Assembly: GCF_009498235.1 (NCBI RefSeq)
Contig: NZ_CP044205.1
Coordinates: 3,907,389-3,971,388 of the forward strand
From: Candidatus Methylospira mobilis
Lineage (GTDB): Bacteria > Pseudomonadota > Gammaproteobacteria > Methylococcales > Methylococcaceae
Reading direction: 5' to 3'
Length of the DNA: 64,000 nt
A program made the position numbers and the translations under genes. This document shows positions 13,350 to 35,152 of this stretch, piece by piece. Under the pieces are notes generated by a model. It made no database searches, was not told the origin of the DNA, and saw only the letters and a program-made list of their open reading frames with translations. Each line of letters starts with the position of its first letter. Within the stretch, counting starts at the first letter, position 1.

Positions 13350-13507
13350 GACGACTTTCGACCATCAGATGCGAAGCGTAATTACTTGGATGGATGCGGC
13401 ATAATTTGTCAGCTTTTTCCATAGCAGGCGGAGAGTTTTCTGCATCATTCGGGTAATACATTAACCAAAGCGAGCCATAAGAAATTTCGAGTTGGATGAG
13501 GGTGGGG

Positions 13508-16402
13508 ATGAACAAACTTGATGCTGAACTGGCTCAACTGAACAGCGAACTAAAGAAAAACAATAGCGAGGGCGAGAAGATCAGAGCCGACTTGGTCTTC
13601 TTTGAGACCTTCAATGAGTCTGAAACGCGCAAAAAGATCCTCGTTCTGAGTGACGCACTCAAGCAAAAGCAAGCGGCGTTCGACAAGCCGCCAATCCCAT
13701 CCATTGACATGGCCTCACAAGGATTCTGGCAAAGGCTTTTTCGCTTGGGAGAGCCATTCGAGGCGCAAAAACAAGCTGAGGCCGAAAATAAGCGCTACAA
13801 AGACGAATTGGCGCTTGAGATTGCCAAATTGGACGCACAAATAAAAGCGGACCAAGCGTTGATCGAGCGGCATAAATCGCTCGATGAGTACCAGCTTCGC
13901 GCCGAAATCAAGACGTATGAGTGCCGCGAAGAGATCATTCAGGGCAAGATTCTGTCTGTATCGGCAAAGCGCGAAAAGCTCGAACAGGCCATTGGCCCAT
14001 TGCTTGAAGACTCTGCGCAATATCGCCAGCAAGTGCGGGACTGTGAGGCCGGCCTTAAATCTTGCAATGCTTACTTAGAGCAACTGGCTATTAATCACGA
14101 TGCTCCAGCTAAACGCCGCAAAGTGCATGAGGCTTGTGCCGAGCAGTTCAACGGCAACGGTCGACCTGAGGACGTGAACAAAGATCTGAACAAAAAGCTC
14201 AAAGCCGCACGCAGCTTGCTTATCGAGATCGATAAACGCATCGACGACGAAATCGAAAAGATGGATACCAAATCGACGGTATCAGTGCCGATGCTCAATG
14301 TGGAACTCAATCTTGCACAAAGTCCAACTTTCGTTAGCTACATTCATCCAAAGATTATTGATAATGCTGCATCGCAAGAGTCAAGATTGGCTGAATCAAA
14401 CCCTTTACGGTTCACATTGGAGACCGAATCTAAAGATAAAGCTGAATCTTTGATTAGCCATAAATCAAAAGTAAAAGACGCGCTTGGCCAAGGCATCTCG
14501 CAATTCCAGGGTGCATGGAACCAGGTTCAGGGCGATGCCTTGAATAAGGCATTGAGTGATTACGGAAAAGGGATACGGGAGTCGATCGCCAATAAATCTG
14601 GTGTGATCAATGGTCAATCCATGGATGTGCAGCAGGGCTTCGTTGCTGAGGCACACCACGTTGGTTCGTTCAACATTGAAGCTGCAGCCAAGGGGCAGAA
14701 CAATCACCGGGCGACACTTGATGTTGGAAAGGTAAATGACCCAGTAGCTGACATTCGCGTAACAACGCCTAATGGGAGTAGCGACCACCAGGTCAAGTTC
14801 TACAAGGATGGCGAGAAGACCGCAGCAGCACTGTCACCGGAGAAATACGATGGTGTTGGCAAGATCGTTCCTTCCGATCAGGTTGACTCTGTAAAAGAGT
14901 CAGCTCGCAAGCAGTCAATGCGCAACAAGGACACACGCCCCGGGGTGTCAAAGAGCAACCAGGATACAGCCGACAACGCCACTGACAAGCTCACGTCCGG
15001 TGACGGCAAAGTATCAAGCAAGGGGCTTAACCGTAAAGACAAGGGCAGCGCAGAGGAGCTTGCCAAAGAAGCTGGGAAAAACGAGAACAGCCTTGAGTAC
15101 AAAGATAAGGCTCGGGTGCGCAGTGAGTTCAATAGCATGCAGTACCGCAATGCTGCCAAGGCTGGTGCTGTTGCCGGCGCAGCCTCCGAGTCCGTGTCCA
15201 TCCTGCTGGAGTATATGCGCAGTGATGAGCCCTTAGACATGGATAAGTGTCTTGATGCGGCCCAGCGCGTGGTGCTTAGCTCCGTGAAGGGTGCCGGCAA
15301 TGCTTTGCTGATCACTGGTATTCAGCACGCAGGGCAGTCATTGATTGATGCTGCTGCAGCTCAGACCGGCAAAACGATTGGCGGAACCCTTGGCAAACAG
15401 TTCATCAAGGGCAACGTAGCCGCGGCTGTTGCCCAAATCACGGTCCAGCTGGCACAAAACCTGTGTAAGTTCTCCAACGGCGAGATCGACAGCATCGAGT
15501 TCGCTTCGTACACCATTGGCGGCTCGATGCAGGTCGTGGGTGGTAGCTTGGCATATGGCTTGGGTGCCAGCGCGGGCACGTACTTGGGCACGTTTGTCAG
15601 TGCCTCGGTCTCTGGTTACGCCATTGGCGGCACTACACTTGGCACCTTGGGCGTCATGGCCAGCGGTGCGGTGTTCGCAGTTGGCTTTGCTCTTGCAGCT
15701 GGTGCTTATGTCAATCACTTCTCTGTCAAGGGTGTGACGATCGCCAATGAAGATCTGAAATCTGCACTGGAGCTACTCAACGGCGGCTCGATCAACCTGT
15801 CGCAGTATGTCGGAAAGGTCGGCACCCTGTCCGAGCAGTCGTTCATTTGGAAAGATCTGCTGCCTTTCAGCGGTGCGATCTCGGTCATCTCGGAATACAG
15901 CACGCGCAAGAACCAGCTCAAGGCTGTCCAAAAAAATATCTACGCGCAGCTTGAAGAATTGCCTGAGCAAGAGCAGCAGATGATGCTGGAGCTGGCCAAC
16001 GAGTACAGCAAGGAAATTGCAAACATCGACCGCCAGTACGAAGAGGCGCGGCGCAGCATTACCAATCAGGCCTTCGCTCAGATCGACGCCATGGGCAAAG
16101 AGCTTAACGATCACCTGGAGATGCAATACCTGATGTTCAAGCCTGTGCGCAAGAACTACATCGAGCACTCGGCGCTGATGGACGTGGAGCGACGCAAACA
16201 AGAAGAAAAGTGCGAGCGCTCGCAAGCATTCGCCAAAGAGCTAGAAAACCTGCAAGCGAATCTGAACACCATCGACATCTCAGAGCAGACAGGTTGTGAT
16301 CTCAAACAAAAGATGGAAAAGACGATTCTCGATCGCATGGAATTGATCATTCCAAACAAGACCGGCTGGGACCAGGCCTGTGAATTTCTTGAGCTGCACT
16401 GA
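13508..16402 (+). CDS. Giant coiled-coil protein with hydrophobic, colicin-like central region
   Basis: The 964-aa product is not recognised. An ATG at 13508 follows agggtgggg; an ATG four codons upstream (13496) is also possible. Residues 1-265 are a charged K/E/Q-rich coiled coil. Residues about 375-465 form a compact domain with AEAHHVGSFNIEAAAKG, VADIRV, HQVKFYKDGEKTA and a closing KYDGVGKIVPSDQ. Residues about 480-545 are polar and repeat-like (SGDGKVSSKG). Residues about 548-740 are rich in G, A, V and S with several hydrophobic stretches (GGSLAYGLGASAGTYLG, then GVMASGAVFAVGFALAAGAY), suggesting membrane insertion or a pore. Residues 790-950 are again coiled coil. There is no signal peptide. 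It is the first gene of a same-strand island ending in a helicase, and its GC content is lower than its neighbours. Confidence 0.8.
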   Translation: MNKLDAELAQLNSELKKNNSEGEKIRADLVFFETFNESETRKKILVLSDALKQKQAAFDKPPIPSIDMASQGFWQRLFRLGEPFEAQKQAEAENKRYKDELALEIAKLDAQIKADQALIERHKSLDEYQLRAEIKTYECREEIIQGKILSVSAKREKLEQAIGPLLEDSAQYRQQVRDCEAGLKSCNAYLEQLAINHDAPAKRRKVHEACAEQFNGNGRPEDVNKDLNKKLKAARSLLIEIDKRIDDEIEKMDTKSTVSVPMLNVELNLAQSPTFVSYIHPKIIDNAASQESRLAESNPLRFTLETESKDKAESLISHKSKVKDALGQGISQFQGAWNQVQGDALNKALSDYGKGIRESIANKSGVINGQSMDVQQGFVAEAHHVGSFNIEAAAKGQNNHRATLDVGKVNDPVADIRVTTPNGSSDHQVKFYKDGEKTAAALSPEKYDGVGKIVPSDQVDSVKESARKQSMRNKDTRPGVSKSNQDTADNATDKLTSGDGKVSSKGLNRKDKGSAEELAKEAGKNENSLEYKDKARVRSEFNSMQYRNAAKAGAVAGAASESVSILLEYMRSDEPLDMDKCLDAAQRVVLSSVKGAGNALLITGIQHAGQSLIDAAAAQTGKTIGGTLGKQFIKGNVAAAVAQITVQLAQNLCKFSNGEIDSIEFASYTIGGSMQVVGGSLAYGLGASAGTYLGTFVSASVSGYAIGGTTLGTLGVMASGAVFAVGFALAAGAYVNHFSVKGVTIANEDLKSALELLNGGSINLSQYVGKVGTLSEQSFIWKDLLPFSGAISVISEYSTRKNQLKAVQKNIYAQLEELPEQEQQMMLELANEYSKEIANIDRQYEEARRSITNQAFAQIDAMGKELNDHLEMQYLMFKPVRKNYIEHSALMDVERRKQEEKCERSQAFAKELENLQANLNTIDISEQTGCDLKQKMEKTILDRMELIIPNKTGWDQACEFLELH

Positions 16403-16415
16403 GGATTGAATTTCT

Positions 16416-17188
16416 ATGATCTTAAAAGCAATTGCCAAATGGTGGGCAGGCTCAAAGCTGGAAGAAGAAACCGCCCACACGCAGGCTCTGGTTCGACGTC
16501 TCGAACTGGCTCAAGCTGAAGCCAATCGCCGAGTAAATGCCAAAATGGCTGAATACTCTCGCCAGATTAAAGCGCACCAGGAACAGCGCAACAAAGATCT
16601 CAAGCAGTATCTTGATTTCATGAATGGTCAGTTAGAAATAACTGGCACATATTTAAATGAACTTGCAGAGTTCCAAAGTTTCACATTTATCTGTATTGAT
16701 TCGTGGATGCATCTTGATCTTTGCAATCAAGAAATCAATATCGTCAATGAAAAGCTGAATGCAATTTATTCGACCACATCATTAATTGATGCCTATATCA
16801 ATGAGCTGAATAAGCAGGCTCAGCGGCAAGGTCGTCATGTATGGCGTGAATTTACTTCTGCGCGAGCAATCGGTGTGACCACCGATTTCATTGAGGCAAC
16901 GAAGCGTTCTATTGAGCGCTCGTCGAAAAATAGTAACGACGAATTTAACAATGAGTTGAATCGGCTTAAAAGCCATCGATCACTTCTTTTAAAAGAAGCT
17001 GCTACCCTTAAAGACAAAAAAAAAGTCCTCAACGATAAAAAAGTATCGGTTATGGAGAGACACGAGGACAATAAGAAAACTTTGGCTTTGAAATATGACG
17101 CATGCATTGAATATTGGAATGTAATTGCCAAGAAGTTCGAATCATATTATGCGTTTGAAATGACGCAAAACGATTATGCGAGGCGGTT
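16416..17188 (+). pseudogene. Coiled-coil protein gene, 5' part (split by IS30 element)
   Basis: The reading frame starts MILKAIAKWWAGSKLEEETA 13 bases after the preceding stop, with agga upstream. It encodes about 258 residues of mostly charged helix (TQALVRRLELAQAEANRRV, then LNRLKSHRSLLLKEAATLK) and one more hydrophobic stretch (FQSFTFICIDSWMHLDL). It reaches the IS end at 17188 without a stop. The frame continues 25 codons into the IS to a TAA at 17262-17264, giving a 282-aa truncated product. The matching 3' part lies at 18270-18758 in the same frame. The function is unknown. The short spacing suggests it is co-transcribed and partnered with the large protein upstream. Confidence 0.75.
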
Positions 17189-18232
17189 TCAAATTCCAAG
17201 TGCAACGGTTGTTGATTCGCACATAGCCTCATCCTTTTGGCAATTATGCAGGAATTCGGCATAAACTTCCAAGGGGGTTCTAAACCCGAGAATTTTTCTC
17301 GGTCTCGTGTTCAGTCTGTATGCGATTTCATCCAGTTGCTCCTGCGAGTAGGTCGACAAATCGGTTCCTTTGGGTAAATACTGGCGCAGTAGTCCATTGG
17401 TGTTCTCGTTACTTCCGCGTTGCCAAGGGCTATGAGGGTCGGCAAAGTAGATGGTGATGCCCGCTCGCTCACTGAGCGTTTTATGGCAGCTCATTTCCTT
17501 ACCTTGATCATAGGTCATGGTTTTGCGCATCGGCTCATGGACACGGTTCAATGCGTTACTGAAGCCTTCCAGTGCGGCTTCAGCCGTGCCGGACGTCATA
17601 GCCGCCAGCATCACAAGGCGGCTGCTACGCTCGACCAGCGTGCCTACCGAAGAACGATTGCCTGACCCCTTGATCAGATCACCTTCCCAATGCCCTGGAA
17701 CCAGCCGGTCTTCAATCTCCGGTGGACGTACATGCAAGCTGTTCATATCAGGTATCTGACCACGCCGATCGGTTCCTCTGGCGCGAGGACGTCTGCCCGT
17801 GTGAGATTGCCGCAAACAGCTCAACAGTTCGCTGCGTAATTCACCGCGTGGGAAGGCATACAGTGCGGTGTATATCGTTTCATGTGACACCGTAAGGGCT
17901 CCCTGCTCTGCATACACGCGCTTGAGTGTGCCAGAAATCTGTTCAGGCGACCAACCTTCATGCAGAAAGTAATCGACTACGCCAAAAAGCAGGCTATCCG
18001 GTAATAATTTGCGCGGCTTTCGAGCCATATGGCGTAACTGCCTCGCTCGTATCCCCGCCGTACCTGCGCAATAGCTACCAGACTTGACTGGATTGCGTAA
18101 CAATTCGCGACTGATCGTTGACGGAGATCGCTGTAATCTCAAAGCCATCGCCCTCAGGCTATGTCCATCTGACTTCATCAACATGATCGCGGCACGATCC
18201 TCTGCACTTAAGTGATTATATTTCTTTTCCAT
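17189..18232 (-). CDS. IS30-family transposase
   Basis: The 347-aa protein starts MEKKYNHLSAEDRAAIMLMK after aaggtg. An N-terminal helix-turn-helix (GHSLRAMALRLQRSPSTISREL) is followed by a DDE core with the family signatures HWEGDLIKGSGNRSSVGTL, MTYDQGKEMSCHK and FADPHSPWQRGSNENTNGL, then LNTRPRKILGFRTP. All catalytic acidic residues appear present, so the enzyme is probably active. The stop codon TGA coincides with the outermost bases of the left inverted repeat. Confidence 0.95.
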   Translation of the reverse strand: MEKKYNHLSAEDRAAIMLMKSDGHSLRAMALRLQRSPSTISRELLRNPVKSGSYCAGTAGIRARQLRHMARKPRKLLPDSLLFGVVDYFLHEGWSPEQISGTLKRVYAEQGALTVSHETIYTALYAFPRGELRSELLSCLRQSHTGRRPRARGTDRRGQIPDMNSLHVRPPEIEDRLVPGHWEGDLIKGSGNRSSVGTLVERSSRLVMLAAMTSGTAEAALEGFSNALNRVHEPMRKTMTYDQGKEMSCHKTLSERAGITIYFADPHSPWQRGSNENTNGLLRQYLPKGTDLSTYSQEQLDEIAYRLNTRPRKILGFRTPLEVYAEFLHNCQKDEAMCESTTVALGI

Positions 18233-18269
18233 TGCAACACCTTATCATAGTGTTGCACTTGTATTTTGA
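17189..18269 (-). mobile_element. IS30-family insertion sequence
   Basis: A 1081-bp element with one transposase gene on the minus strand. The imperfect terminal inverted repeats begin tcaaattccaagtgcaac on the left and tcaaaatacaagtgcaac (reverse complement) on the right. The flanks are ggcggtt and gcccgcc, an approximately palindromic target, which IS30-family transposases are known to prefer. No perfect target duplication is recognised. The element interrupts a coiled-coil gene of the island. Confidence 0.85.
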
Positions 18270-18758
18270 GCCCGCCCGAACTATTGGATTAAAAATCTTA
18301 AAGAGGGCGGTACGCTGCAAGAGATTATCAAGGTCATTGGTACGGCTACAGACATTATTGGTTGCGCCAACAAAATATTAAATGAGCTAAACGAGGAATA
18401 TCAGCCGTTCAAACGGCGTGTCCAGACGGCACATGATAGCAAAGTCTATCCAGTCACTTTTGACCATGACAATGCAGAACGAAAGCGACTGGCTCCGATG
18501 GTGACAGAGGCCTTTGAAGACAAGAAGTCATTAATAGAAGCACGCACCATTCTTTATACACGCCGTGATGAGCTTCAAGGATATATCGACCGGATTAAGC
18601 CTCTGCATCCTGATTCAGCTATTGAGAGCATCTGTGAAATGCTTAGTGCTGACCGTGAATTTAATGCTTGGTTTGCATTCGGATTTAACACAAAGAAGCA
18701 GAAGCGCGAGCACTGGGACAAGAAGAACAAGAGCATTGAAAATGCAGCCACAAATTGA
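18270..18758 (+). pseudogene. Coiled-coil protein gene, 3' part (after IS30 element)
   Basis: An open frame begins immediately after the IS right end (a TGA lies just inside the IS) in the same frame as the 5' part at 16416-17188. The 162 residues include NYWIKNLKEGGTLQEIIKVI, ATDIIGCANKILNELNEEYQ and a basic end (FNTKKQKREHWDKKNKS). It has no start codon of its own near the junction; the first ATG is at 18498. Joined, the two parts would give a protein of about 420 residues. Whether bases were lost at the insertion is not known. Its 3' end overlaps the next gene by 17 bases. Confidence 0.7.
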
Positions 18759-19122
18759 AATGTCATTTGACTGGAGAAGGCGCTCGATTAAGGAAAGCAT
18801 TATTGCTGTAACGAAAGCTGTAGGCGCTGGATTTAACACAAAAGAGAAACTGACTGCATCTTTGCCTCAGTTTTCGGCATATAGAATTGCGCTTGCTATT
18901 GACGCATTGATTACCGCTGGCATGGCTGAAAATAATCTTGGCGTATTGAGCATTCATCCAGATATGGAGATTGTTTTTGAACTTGCTGATTCCAAGCTGG
19001 TGTTGCCTTTGACGGTTTATAAAGCAGATGCATCCATGCGCCGCGTGATTATCAACAAGCTGGGCTGCAAAAATCCCGCTGGCGTTGAATCTTTGCTTTA
19101 CGTAAAGATCGTGGAGGCATAA
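18742..19122 (+). CDS. Small island protein, possible winged-helix fold
   Basis: The 126-aa protein starts MQPQIEMSFDWRRRSIKESI. The start lies inside the end of the split coiled-coil gene, so translation was probably coupled to it. The pattern TKEKLTASLPQFSAYRIALAIDALITAGMAENN looks like a winged-helix DNA-binding or MarR-type fold, but no family is recognised. The C-terminal half (MEIVFELADSKLVLPL, then MRRVIINKLG) looks like mixed beta/alpha structure. The helicase ATG follows its stop codon directly, and the helicase ribosome binding site (gtggagg) lies within its last codons. Confidence 0.7.
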   Translation: MQPQIEMSFDWRRRSIKESIIAVTKAVGAGFNTKEKLTASLPQFSAYRIALAIDALITAGMAENNLGVLSIHPDMEIVFELADSKLVLPLTVYKADASMRRVIINKLGCKNPAGVESLLYVKIVEA

Positions 19123-20895
19123 ATGGGTGAACGTCATCCAAACCTGCATCTCGAATCCGAGGTTGTTATCGAATTCGTAGAGCACATCGACCATTGGCTG
19201 GAATACCTGTCCGAGCTGATGCGCAACGCTGACAAGGAAACGATGCCGAAGCTCAAGCGTCAGATCAGCTATCTGCTCGCGTTTCGCACCGGTGCCAACT
19301 GCAACATCAACCACAATCGGTTGCTTCAGTATTACTACAGTAACCGAGCCCAAAAGGGCGGTGACGACATCTCACTGCCGGGAGAACGCCCCAACGCCGA
19401 GGAACGTCCAACCGACAAGGTCAAGCCAGACACGGAGGCCAAGATCAAGGCCTTCATGGATGAGTTCAAGGCTCGTGAAGGCGGAACCTCCATGGCGATC
19501 AAGCCCTTAGCTCCCATCCAATCGAGCTACAAGGAAGGTGATCCCGCGTTCAAGCTAATCTCAAAGGTGCTGGCCACCGAGGATCTGTTCTTCATGCAGG
19601 GGCCTCCCGGCACCGGCAAGACAACAGCTATCGTGGAAATCATCCTGCAAACGATCAAAGCCAAGCCAGGTGCGCGAATCCTGATCAGCTCAGAGACTCA
19701 CGTGGCCGTGGATAACGCCTTTGATCGCCTTGCTGAGCAATGCTCTCCAGAGCTTCTGGACTCGATGCTGCGCTACCCGCAGTTCTCCATCACCGAGTTC
19801 GAGAGCCAAAACACGCCACAAACAGACGCCCTAAGTCGCGCTGATGCTTTATGGCACAAGGCGTACAGTATCGCGCCAGAGCTGACCATGAACCTATGGG
19901 AGACGTTAGAGCAGGGTAAAACCAATGACATCGGCAAGATGGGCCTGCCGCGTTGGCAAGCTCGCAATCTAGCTGAAATGCACCAGATCATCGGCGTCAC
20001 CTGCAATCAGATCGATCACTTGGTCGATGATGAAACCGAGATGTTCGACCTAGCCATTGTTGACGAATGTTCCAAGGCCACCATGCCCGAATGGCTCATG
20101 GCCATGAGCGTAGCCAAAAAATGCATTTTAGTTGGCGACCACAAGCAACTACCGCCCACATTCTGCGCAGAAGAAGTCGAGGTACTGACCACGATGGACG
20201 AGCACAAAGAACGCTTGATCCGTAACGGTGTGATCGAGCGCTTGTTCGAAAACCTGCCGGTAGATATGAAAGGCACACTGGATAAGCAGTTCCGCATGCT
20301 CCCAGACATCGGTCAATTCATCTCGCACCACTTCTACAATGACGACCTACAGCACCACCGCACAACCACGGATCACGAGTTTCAAGACTTCGGCTGGTTC
20401 ACATACAAATCCAATGACTACAGAGTGCCTGCGCAGCAGGGTAACGAAAAGAAGATTCTGGTCAATGAATTAGAAATCCGAATCATCATGGCCCGGCTCG
20501 CTGAGATATTCGAAAGGCTCAAGCGCGCCGGCGGTACCAGAAAGCTCAGTGTTGCACTGATCACGCCATACCGCGCCCAATGTAAAACTTTGCGCGATAC
20601 CCTGAGCCAACGTGACTTCAGCGAGATGCTGGCTGTGGAAGTCGACACCGTCGATGCCTTCCAAGGACGACAGGCCGATATCGTGTTTTTCTCGTTCGTG
20701 CGCAATATCGGTCCTGCGACTTTCTACGCTGACGACCGCCGCATGAACGTGGCCATCTCACGGGCACGAGATGCCGTCTACCTGGTTGGCGACATTGACT
20801 ACATCCGCAGCAAACGCCTGCCGGTGCTTGATGCCTTAGCACGCTTGCCTATATATAAAGCATCGAAAGGAAGATGTTTAATCAATACTTATTAA
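19123..20895 (+). CDS. UPF1/DNA2-like superfamily 1 helicase
   Basis: The 590-aa protein has the complete SF1 motif set: GPPGTGKTT (I, near residue 163), SSETHVAVDNAF (Ia), VDECSKAT (II), VGDHKQLPP (III), DKQFRM (IV), VDTVDAFQGRQADIVFFS (V) and RMNVAISRARDAVYLVGD (VI). About 155 residues precede motif I; they start MGERHPNLHLESEVVIEFVE and include a charged linker, and are not recognised. There is no nuclease domain. UPF1/DNA2-type helicases move 5'-3' on single-stranded RNA or DNA. This one is the last gene of the island operon, so it probably works with the coiled-coil/membrane proteins upstream. A role in anti-phage defence is plausible but unproven. Confidence 0.9.
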   Translation: MGERHPNLHLESEVVIEFVEHIDHWLEYLSELMRNADKETMPKLKRQISYLLAFRTGANCNINHNRLLQYYYSNRAQKGGDDISLPGERPNAEERPTDKVKPDTEAKIKAFMDEFKAREGGTSMAIKPLAPIQSSYKEGDPAFKLISKVLATEDLFFMQGPPGTGKTTAIVEIILQTIKAKPGARILISSETHVAVDNAFDRLAEQCSPELLDSMLRYPQFSITEFESQNTPQTDALSRADALWHKAYSIAPELTMNLWETLEQGKTNDIGKMGLPRWQARNLAEMHQIIGVTCNQIDHLVDDETEMFDLAIVDECSKATMPEWLMAMSVAKKCILVGDHKQLPPTFCAEEVEVLTTMDEHKERLIRNGVIERLFENLPVDMKGTLDKQFRMLPDIGQFISHHFYNDDLQHHRTTTDHEFQDFGWFTYKSNDYRVPAQQGNEKKILVNELEIRIIMARLAEIFERLKRAGGTRKLSVALITPYRAQCKTLRDTLSQRDFSEMLAVEVDTVDAFQGRQADIVFFSFVRNIGPATFYADDRRMNVAISRARDAVYLVGDIDYIRSKRLPVLDALARLPIYKASKGRCLINTY

Positions 20896-21181: not shown

Positions 21182-21359
21182 TTGTAACTATTCAGCATGC
21201 TTGGGGAGAGGAAGTGAGGTGAGTCAGGCGAGACCTTCTGCGCCCACGGATGGGCGCAGAGAGCTTCCAGGGACGGACTTGCAGCGTGTCTCGACTGGCT
21301 TGCCTCACTTCCGACGGGTTACGGTCAGGGCTCAATAGCACTCCGCTGAATAGTTACAG
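21182..21359. mobile_element. 178-bp miniature inverted-repeat element (MITE)
   Basis: Terminal inverted repeats tgtaactattcagc (21183-21196) and gctgaatagttaca (21345-21358) bound a fold-back sequence. Inside, ggaagtgagg is repeated in inverted form near both ends, and a perfect hairpin ctgcgccca...tgggcgcag sits near the middle. The direct flanks ttgg (21178-21181 and 21360-21363) look like a 4-bp target duplication. It has no coding capacity. A single copy of the same terminal motif occurs at 35403. It lies between the helicase island and the glycosyltransferase operon; 21364-21498 holds nothing recognisable. Confidence 0.7.
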
Positions 21360-21498
21360 TTGGTTTTTCATTGTTTTCAACAATCAATGGATTTTTGACT
21401 CAGCTAAACTTTAACTGTTCAACACCCAACTCCGAATACCCAAAAATAATCGCTTGCGAGGTTGTGCGGATGCCCATGAAGCTACGGAATCGATCCAT

Positions 21499-33050: not shown

Positions 33051-33899
33051 GTGCAACAGAAGACGTATCCAGTGACCGTGCTCTGTCGAGTGATGCAGGT
33101 GAGTACCAGTGCGTATTATGAGTGGTTAAAAGCCCGACAGGACAGCGATAAGGATCAACAAGATCAAAAGCTTGCCGAGAAGGCGAGGCAGATTTTCATC
33201 GACAATAAACAGTGCTTTGGTTCGCGTCGTTTAGCGGATCGACTGCAAAAACAAGGTTTTGTCGTTGGGCGTTTTAAAACGCGGCGCATCATGCGAGATT
33301 TAAACTTGAAGGTGCGCTATCCCAGGCGAGTTAAGGTCACCACCGATAGTAACCATAACGAGGCCATTTCGCCCAACCGCTTGGACCGGCAATTCCAGGT
33401 TGGCAAGCCCAATCAAGTATGGACGACAGATATCACCTACGTGTGGACCCTAGAAGGCTGGCTTTATGTCGCGGTGGTCATCGATCTGTTTTCCCGGCAA
33501 GTCGTGGGCTGGGCGATTGATGATCACATGCGGGCCTCGCTGTGCGTCAAGGCCTTGCAAATGGCCTTCTGGCGCCGCAAACCGCCACCCGGTCTGTTGC
33601 ATCACTCGGATCGTGGCAGCCAGTATGCGAGCAGGGAATATCGCCGGCATTTAGACGTGATGAAGATGGAACAGAGTATGAGCCGCAAAGGGAACTGCTG
33701 GGACAACTCGCCGACCGAACGTTTTTTTCGCAGCTTGAAGCATGAGCAGCTCAACTACGAAAAATTCAAGACCCAAGCGGCGGCAAAACTGAGTGTGATC
33801 GATTATTTGGCTTTTTATAATGGCCTTCGACCACACTCAACATTGGGCTACCAGTCCCCACTCGAATTCGAGCGGGAATTTTATAGAAACGCTGCCTGA
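33051..33899 (+). CDS. IS3-family OrfB transposase domain (IS A)
   Basis: The 282-aa frame starts at a GTG but is more likely made as the second part of an OrfAB frameshift fusion. It carries the DDE catalytic core: [34 protein letters not shown] and NCWDNSPTERFFRSLKHE, with the integrase fold ending FYNGLRPHSTLGYQSP. No lesion is visible, so it is probably active. Confidence 0.93.
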   Translation: MQQKTYPVTVLCRVMQVSTSAYYEWLKARQDSDKDQQDQKLAEKARQIFIDNKQCFGSRRLADRLQKQGFVVGRFKTRRIMRDLNLKVRYPRRVKVTTDSNHNEAISPNRLDRQFQVGKPNQVWTTDITYVWTLEGWLYVAVVIDLFSRQVVGWAIDDHMRASLCVKALQMAFWRRKPPPGLLHHSDRGSQYASREYRRHLDVMKMEQSMSRKGNCWDNSPTERFFRSLKHEQLNYEKFKTQAAAKLSVIDYLAFYNGLRPHSTLGYQSPLEFEREFYRNAA

Positions 33900-33995
33900 A
33901 CAGGTGTCCGGTTTTTGTTGACCATTACAAGTGAAGTGGCTACACTAAATCGGACACACAGATAAACTACCTCGAAAAGGGAGAGTGTGTCAGAA

Positions 33996-34292
33996 ATGAG
34001 TCAAGAAAAACCGAAAACCTATACAGCAGAATTTAAGGCCTCGGCAGTTAAGCTGGCGAATGAGTCGGACAAACCGGCTGCGCAGACGGCGAAAGAGTTG
34101 GGTATTAATCCGAATACGCTTTATACCTGGATTCATCAATACAGCCGGCCTCAGGCGAACGATAAGGCAGTCCGAACCGACGAGCATTTGTACGGGGAGC
34201 TAAAGCGCCTAAAGCTGGAAAACAGCCGCTTGAAGGAGGAGCGTGATTTATTAAAAAAGGCGGCAGCGTACTTTGCCAAGGAACAACGGTGA
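33996..34292 (+). CDS. IS3-family OrfA (IS B)
   Basis: The 98-aa protein starts [20 protein letters not shown]; a GTG three codons upstream is an alternative. It has a helix-turn-helix ([20 protein letters not shown]) and a C-terminal zipper helix ([20 protein letters not shown]). A slippery attaaaaaaggc near 34251 can shift translation into the -1 frame of orfB. Confidence 0.9.
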
Positions 34293-35152
34293 AGTACGCC
34301 TGGATCAAACAACACCGCGATGAATTTTCAGCGAAAGCGATGTGCCGTTTTATGAAGGTTTCCCGTAGCGCTTATTATGCGTGGCTACAGGGTCCTGTGT
34401 CGGTCACAGAAAAGTCTGACGCTAAGCTGTCGGATAAAATCTGCACGTTATTTAAAAAAAGCCGCGGGAGCTACGGCACACGACGGCTGAAAATAGAATT
34501 GGGAAAGAGGGATATCCATCTGAGCCGCCGAAGAATTGGGCGCTTGATGCGACAAGCCGATTTACGCTGTAAGACCCGGCGCCGCTTCAAGGCGACCACA
34601 AATTCGCAGCATAACCTGCCGGTTGCAGCCAATCTTCTGGGTCGCCAGTTTAGCGTCCAGCGGCCCAACCAAGCTTACGTGGGTGATATTACCTATATTT
34701 CGACGCAAGAAGGCTGGCTGTACTTAGCGGTGGTAATCGACTTATATTCTCGCCAAGTCGTAGGCTGGTCTATGGCTGAACATATGCGCACTGCGTTGGC
34801 CAACGATGCCTTTTTGATGGCGGTTTGGAAGCGTAAGCCGGAAAAAGGCCTGATCTGGCATACCGACCGCGGCAGTCAATACGCGTCGGAAAGTCATCGG
34901 ATGTTATTGAAGCAACACGGTGTTCGGCAAAGTATGAGTCGTAAGGGGAATTGCTGGGACAATGCCGTTGCGGAAAGTTTTTTTCATACGCTCAAAACAG
35001 AGCTGATTTATCAGGAAAACTACAAAACTCGGGAGCAAGCCAAGCAGAGTATATTTGAATATATTGAAGTCTTTTATAACCGGGAGCGGCTTCATTCGGC
35101 CAACGAGTATATGTCGCCAGTGGACTACGAATTGCAGTTTAAAACTGCTTAA
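34289..35152 (+). CDS. IS3-family OrfB transposase domain (IS B)
   Basis: The 287-aa DDE transposase domain includes [33 protein letters not shown] and [18 protein letters not shown], and ends [15 protein letters not shown]. Its start codon overlaps the orfA stop, but a frameshift fusion is the more likely product. It appears intact. Confidence 0.93.

Follow-up and report, generated by a model that had tools for sequence, protein, structure and literature searches.

A UPF1-type helicase operon interrupted by IS30 in Candidatus Methylospira mobilis, a candidate for an undescribed defence system with a nuclease-like protein

The described systems that come closest to the locus reported here each contain a helicase. 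In Mokosh (MkoA/MkoB, MkoC) the helicase also occurs with a kinase part, as plasmid annotation indicates. The Mokosh helicase, MkoA or MkoC, is found with NERD or PLD parts (PMC10952713). In CoCoNuT systems of types II and III, coiled coils, wHTH parts and nucleases accompany a UPF1-like helicase, and a cooperation between these components has been proposed (PMC11090510). In Hachiman (HamA/HamB), a helicase sensor controls a nuclease effector (PMC12278908). Here we report on a four-gene operon, A to D, from the gammaproteobacterium Candidatus Methylospira mobilis, which lies in a stretch of 64,000 nucleotides of contig NZ_CP044205.1 that is called the window below. From the sequences of its proteins and their relatives we propose, with moderate confidence, that the operon represents an undescribed defence system, spread by horizontal transfer and directed against phages or other invading DNA, of which this copy has been inactivated. 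Its features are as follows.

13496..16402, plus strand: gene A, 968 aa in the list of open reading frames (964 aa if the start is 13508)
13496..14437, plus strand: A0 module, a coiled-coil region covering roughly the first 310-314 residues of A
14438..16402, plus strand: core of A, with a nuclease-like E...D...QxK domain, a glycine-zipper helix and a C-terminal helical region
Opening at 16416, plus strand: gene B, its reading frame split by an insertion
16416..17181, plus strand: 5' part of B, helical and probably coiled-coil, 93% identical to the intact B of Methylobacter
17182..18276, minus strand: IS30-family insertion in B, with its transposase at 17189-18232 on the minus strand
18280..18758, plus strand: 3' part of B, which aligns with the C-terminal part of the intact B of relatives
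18742..19122, plus strand: gene C, 126 aa, between B and D
19123..20895, plus strand: gene D, a UPF1/IGHMBP2-type SF1 helicase of 590 aa

The spacing is 13 bp between A and B and 0 bp between C and D, and B and C overlap by 17 bp; these reading frames and spacings bear out the preliminary description, which had taken the four same-strand genes as one operon. Its statement that the operon is lower in GC than its surroundings also stands (about 0.50, the flanks being at about 0.57), as does its designation of D as a complete SF1 helicase, in which we found every SF1 motif (GPPGTGKTT, DECSKA, GDHKQLPP, QFRM, VDTVDAFQG and VAISRAR). Mobile elements had been placed both inside the operon and at its right edge. 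The first proved to be the IS30 element within B, whereas the right edge (21182-21360) is formed by a short dispersed repeat of about 175 bp, which has no transposase gene and is present in about 45 copies across the genome. For A we prefer the start at 13496 over that at 13508, since MRVG also opens the Rahnella protein that is homologous to the N-terminus of A. Elsewhere in the window, positions 33051-35152 hold two consecutive ORFs for transposases of the rve/HTH_21 (IS3) type. The synteny on the 3' side of PPDK, which we sought for an empty-site comparison, is not kept in the relatives.

The nearest solved relatives of D are SMUBP-2 and UPF1, and its two RecA domains, together with matches to Pfam AAA_11/AAA_12, TIGR00376 and SMUBP-2 (1e-51), identify it as an SF1 helicase of the UPF1/IGHMBP2 type. 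All copies conserve its short, system-specific N-terminal region. In PADLOC, D matches MkoA best (1e-98), over the helicase core only. This UPF1-type core and the defence-island context are what the operon has in common with Mokosh, but D lacks a kinase, PLD or NERD part, these domains are equally absent from A, B and C, and the latter three proteins have no Mokosh counterpart; membership of that system was therefore rejected, the helicase core being all that matches. Like CoCoNuTs of types II and III (CnuH, CnuE, CnuB and CnuC), the operon encodes a UPF1-like helicase alongside coiled-coil proteins. Unlike them, it has no McrB-type GTPase, McrC, HEPN or PLD effector, and an A-type effector is not described there; membership was rejected on the absence of a GTPase (NxD) or McrC domain from the proteins of the operon. 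It could still be argued, from the MkoA match and from the CoCoNuT pairing of UPF1-like helicases with coiled coils and nucleases, that the operon is a diverged member of one of these two families; we regard this as very improbable, given that kinase, PLD, NERD, McrB GTPase and McrC are all missing and that D is a plain helicase.

Other named systems fit no better. The helicase region of D resembles the PLuB helicase-like protein (NF040671), but its 148.4 bits fall far under the curated cut-off of 999 bits for this model of 1256 positions. For Zorya (MotA/MotB-like ZorA and ZorB with the ZorD helicase) the only match is that of the B coiled coil to ZorA, at E 0.09. Hachiman offers an analogy in the way the system would work, namely the logic of a helicase sensor and a nuclease effector, and no HamA or HamB match is present among the operon proteins. 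The preliminary description had been able to name no system for this combination of genes, and our defence-family search with A to D leads to the same view: the operon fits none by its defining features. Nor did we find a description of it in the literature, supplements and most subscription papers lying outside the search.

Neither B nor C has a family match in Pfam, NCBIfam or PADLOC. B displays a heptad-like periodicity, and the intact Methylobacter protein is 413 aa long. Against PDB profiles, C gave a weak match to the winged-helix protein RPC6 (E 0.22), and on this basis it is possibly a winged helix.

A is likewise without a family match in Pfam, NCBIfam and PADLOC, and profile searches against the PDB returned matches at chance level only (uL3, E 0.006) and no solved relative. 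Its A0 module is encoded in Rahnella by a separate gene of 277 aa, which shares 4 bp with the start of A, and is missing from the Polaromonas, Achromobacter and metagenome-assembled genome (MAG) copies. The arrangement E/D...D...(E/D/Q)xK is the catalytic arrangement of PD-(D/E)XK nucleases. The core of A contains this arrangement at E381, D415, Q428 and K430 (964-aa numbering), a motif match that is no proof of fold. Across 13 diverse relatives of A the E...D...QxK residues are invariant or nearly so, with Q replaced by L in two distant relatives, and the invariant or near-invariant residues of these 13 members include G, E, A, D, K and Y, then A, F, N, Q and S. Structure prediction from the single sequence and by AlphaFold from five sequences reached pLDDT values of 41 and 40, respectively; with predictions at about 40 and no solved relative, the nuclease fold of A rests on the motif. 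We infer from this motif that the core of A is a PD-(D/E)XK-like nuclease.

This reading departs from the preliminary description, which had cast A as a colicin-like membrane effector: A has just one clearly hydrophobic segment, the glycine-zipper helix at residues 718-736 (968-aa numbering), and the nuclease-like E...D...QxK motif that precedes it had been missed. The chief rival to the nuclease reading keeps the operon as a defence system but has A permeabilise the membrane through its glycine zipper, with E...D...QxK in a binding or regulatory role and no nuclease involved. The helix is rich in G and A with GxxxG-like spacing, its hydrophobic peak (KD19 1.9-2.3) falls at the homologous place in every copy of A, and one relative has weak Gly-zipper Pfam matches. 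Bacteriocin-like glycine zippers are also found in some CoCoNuT-associated genes (PMC11090510), and the two relatives with L in place of Q leave some room for this rival. Against it stand the single strongly hydrophobic segment, with no signal peptide seen, and the fact that E, D and QxK are the most conserved residues of A, and we consider a membrane-permeabilising A unlikely.

Taking A as a putative nuclease, we infer a defence function for the operon, a nuclease fold and activity for A, roles for B and C and a direction of signalling, and these suggest a model. D, with C as a small adaptor, would bind nucleic acid exposed by the invader, either RNA or single-stranded DNA. The ATP-driven translocation of D would then be relayed to A by way of B and A0, the coiled-coil proteins. 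A would act as the effector and cut nucleic acid with its E...D...QxK domain; the glycine-zipper helix of A may serve for self-association or as a membrane tether. If the operon is protective against phage, the helicase-sensor class would gain a system of four proteins, and the operon would test the coupling of a UPF1-type helicase through separate small proteins against the domain fusion seen in Mokosh. It would also define a new effector family that combines E...D...QxK with a glycine zipper and could be used as bait for further systems. The putative effector family of A is the main new element of the operon.

The preliminary description had proposed that the conservation of the four-gene order be checked in other genomes, and the same order is present in eight other independent loci. 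With D as bait, a search of 84,980 species genomes yielded four loci, in Methylobacter favarea, a proteobacterial MAG, Rahnella rivi and Achromobacter xylosoxidans, all with A-B-C-D in the same order and on the same strand, the Methylobacter A being cut near a contig edge. Among 72,556 plasmids the set was found on pPNAP01 of Polaromonas and on three Acinetobacter soli plasmids that are nearly identical to one another; in this collection B and C are restricted to these four whole-set records, as is D at an identity of at least 60%. The order A-B-C-D is thus seen in seven independent proteobacterial loci, the window included, and in two very diverged loci, and C is kept between B and D in every copy of the first clade. 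Single homologues in unrelated contexts had been named as an observation that would speak against a system. Neither B nor C turned up on its own, away from the rest of the set, and the A-like and D-like domains found elsewhere are diverged relatives only, in other contexts. The other observation named there, a match to a named defence or conjugation system, did not emerge either.

For all four proteins the resemblance to the window drops in a nearly identical order of loci, and this near-parallel fall in similarity points to joint descent as one inherited unit. A chance neighbourhood of unrelated genes put together by mobile elements, which the low GC and the IS inside B might have brought to mind, is refuted by the shared gene order and the parallel divergence at nine independent loci, and we assign it practically no probability. 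The set is scarce: of 311 genomes of the order, 3 have A, once as a fragment, and the counts for the other genes are similar, with C in 1 of 369 genomes of the class, and full-length D in 1 of 398 genomes of the phylum sample, where the other match is a helicase of 1126 aa. No DNA relative of A or of the Rahnella D was found in 5,426 complete E. coli genomes. The operon is a conserved, sporadic, rare and mobile unit.

The two diverged loci form a second clade and are located on a Streptococcus salivarius plasmid and on an IMG/VR contig. Their layout consists of an A-like protein of 640-670 aa, a coiled-coil protein (split in Streptococcus), a protein of 148-155 aa and a helicase of 498 aa. Between the clades, the homology of A extends over about 515 columns (hhalign E 4e-17) and D aligns from end to end, the D comparison not being independent, since the profile included one row from the second clade. 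Profile comparison of B and C was not significant, and their equivalents are assigned by position only. The IMG/VR cassette is flanked by a portal gene (6e-79) on one side and by a scaffold and major head gene (7e-69) on the other, and adjoins a C5 methylase and an HNH gene; it is cargo of a high-GC prophage. Directly upstream of the prophage A, and overlapping it, is a gene for a 560-aa protein with no Pfam or PHROG match (L032:2991-4673), which is possibly a fifth component there.

In the window, the transposase of the insertion in B belongs to the IS30 family (NCBIfam, 4.5e-93), and the element has inverted ends of about 25 bp and is bordered by a 3-bp duplication, CGA at 17179-17181 and 18277-18279, with the uninterrupted Methylobacter B as the reference. 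The genome holds nine identical full-length copies of the element, which indicates that its insertion into B is recent. The window copy of the operon is probably inactive through this insertion; its other reading frames are still open. Relative to the Methylobacter copy, dN/dS is 0.29 for the last 400 residues of A, 0.26 and 0.35 for the two parts of B, 0.44 for C and 0.19 for D. Values of 0.19-0.44 for the compared parts indicate protein-coding genes that were under purifying selection until lately and, like the recurrence of the gene order, speak against chance. Decay is seen in the window, in Acinetobacter, in the Streptococcus B and in one fragment in another genome of the same order.

Known defence genes surround several of the other copies. 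The Acinetobacter copy adjoins genes of the DpdE/DISARM, NsnB (Menshen) and DUF262 types, and the Polaromonas copy a gene for an LmuB-like ATPase. Beside the MAG copy are genes for a C5 methylase, for a type II restriction enzyme and for Vsr. In the MAG and in Methylobacter a tyrosine recombinase next to mutS is found close to the cassette, which suggests that defence-carrying elements share mutS as an insertion site. An accessory unit of mobile elements with a housekeeping-like role in DNA or RNA repair, replication or maintenance, and not in defence, would agree with the occurrence of the cassette on plasmids and integrated elements and with the activity of UPF1-type helicases in RNA and DNA metabolism in general. 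Such a role appears improbable to us, as the cassette is very rare and sporadic, is repeatedly placed within defence islands, is carried by the prophage beside genes of the R-M type, and has decayed in several copies, as happens with accessory or costly genes.

Beyond the defence operon proposed here, the core of A is common to a wider family of roughly 370-540 aa that has no annotation. We give an even chance to the broader proposition that the undescribed defence system extends across Proteobacteria, a Firmicute plasmid and a high-GC prophage, and that its unrecognised effector family, with E...D...QxK and a glycine zipper, is reused in other undescribed systems of two or three genes. Viral scans with A of the first clade and with four other A subfamilies or alignments revealed nothing new. 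The members of the family, in two- or three-gene contexts, are L004-L013, L018:5866-7278, L019:5845-6951 and L027:5770-7275. They occur in genomes of the same order, on one plasmid each of Cronobacter and Deinococcus, and in a gut phage. In Cronobacter the context comprises a WYL regulator and a protein of 1068 aa without a Pfam match, the Deinococcus relative adjoins the DISARM gene drmD, and the gut phage relative adjoins a restriction endonuclease.
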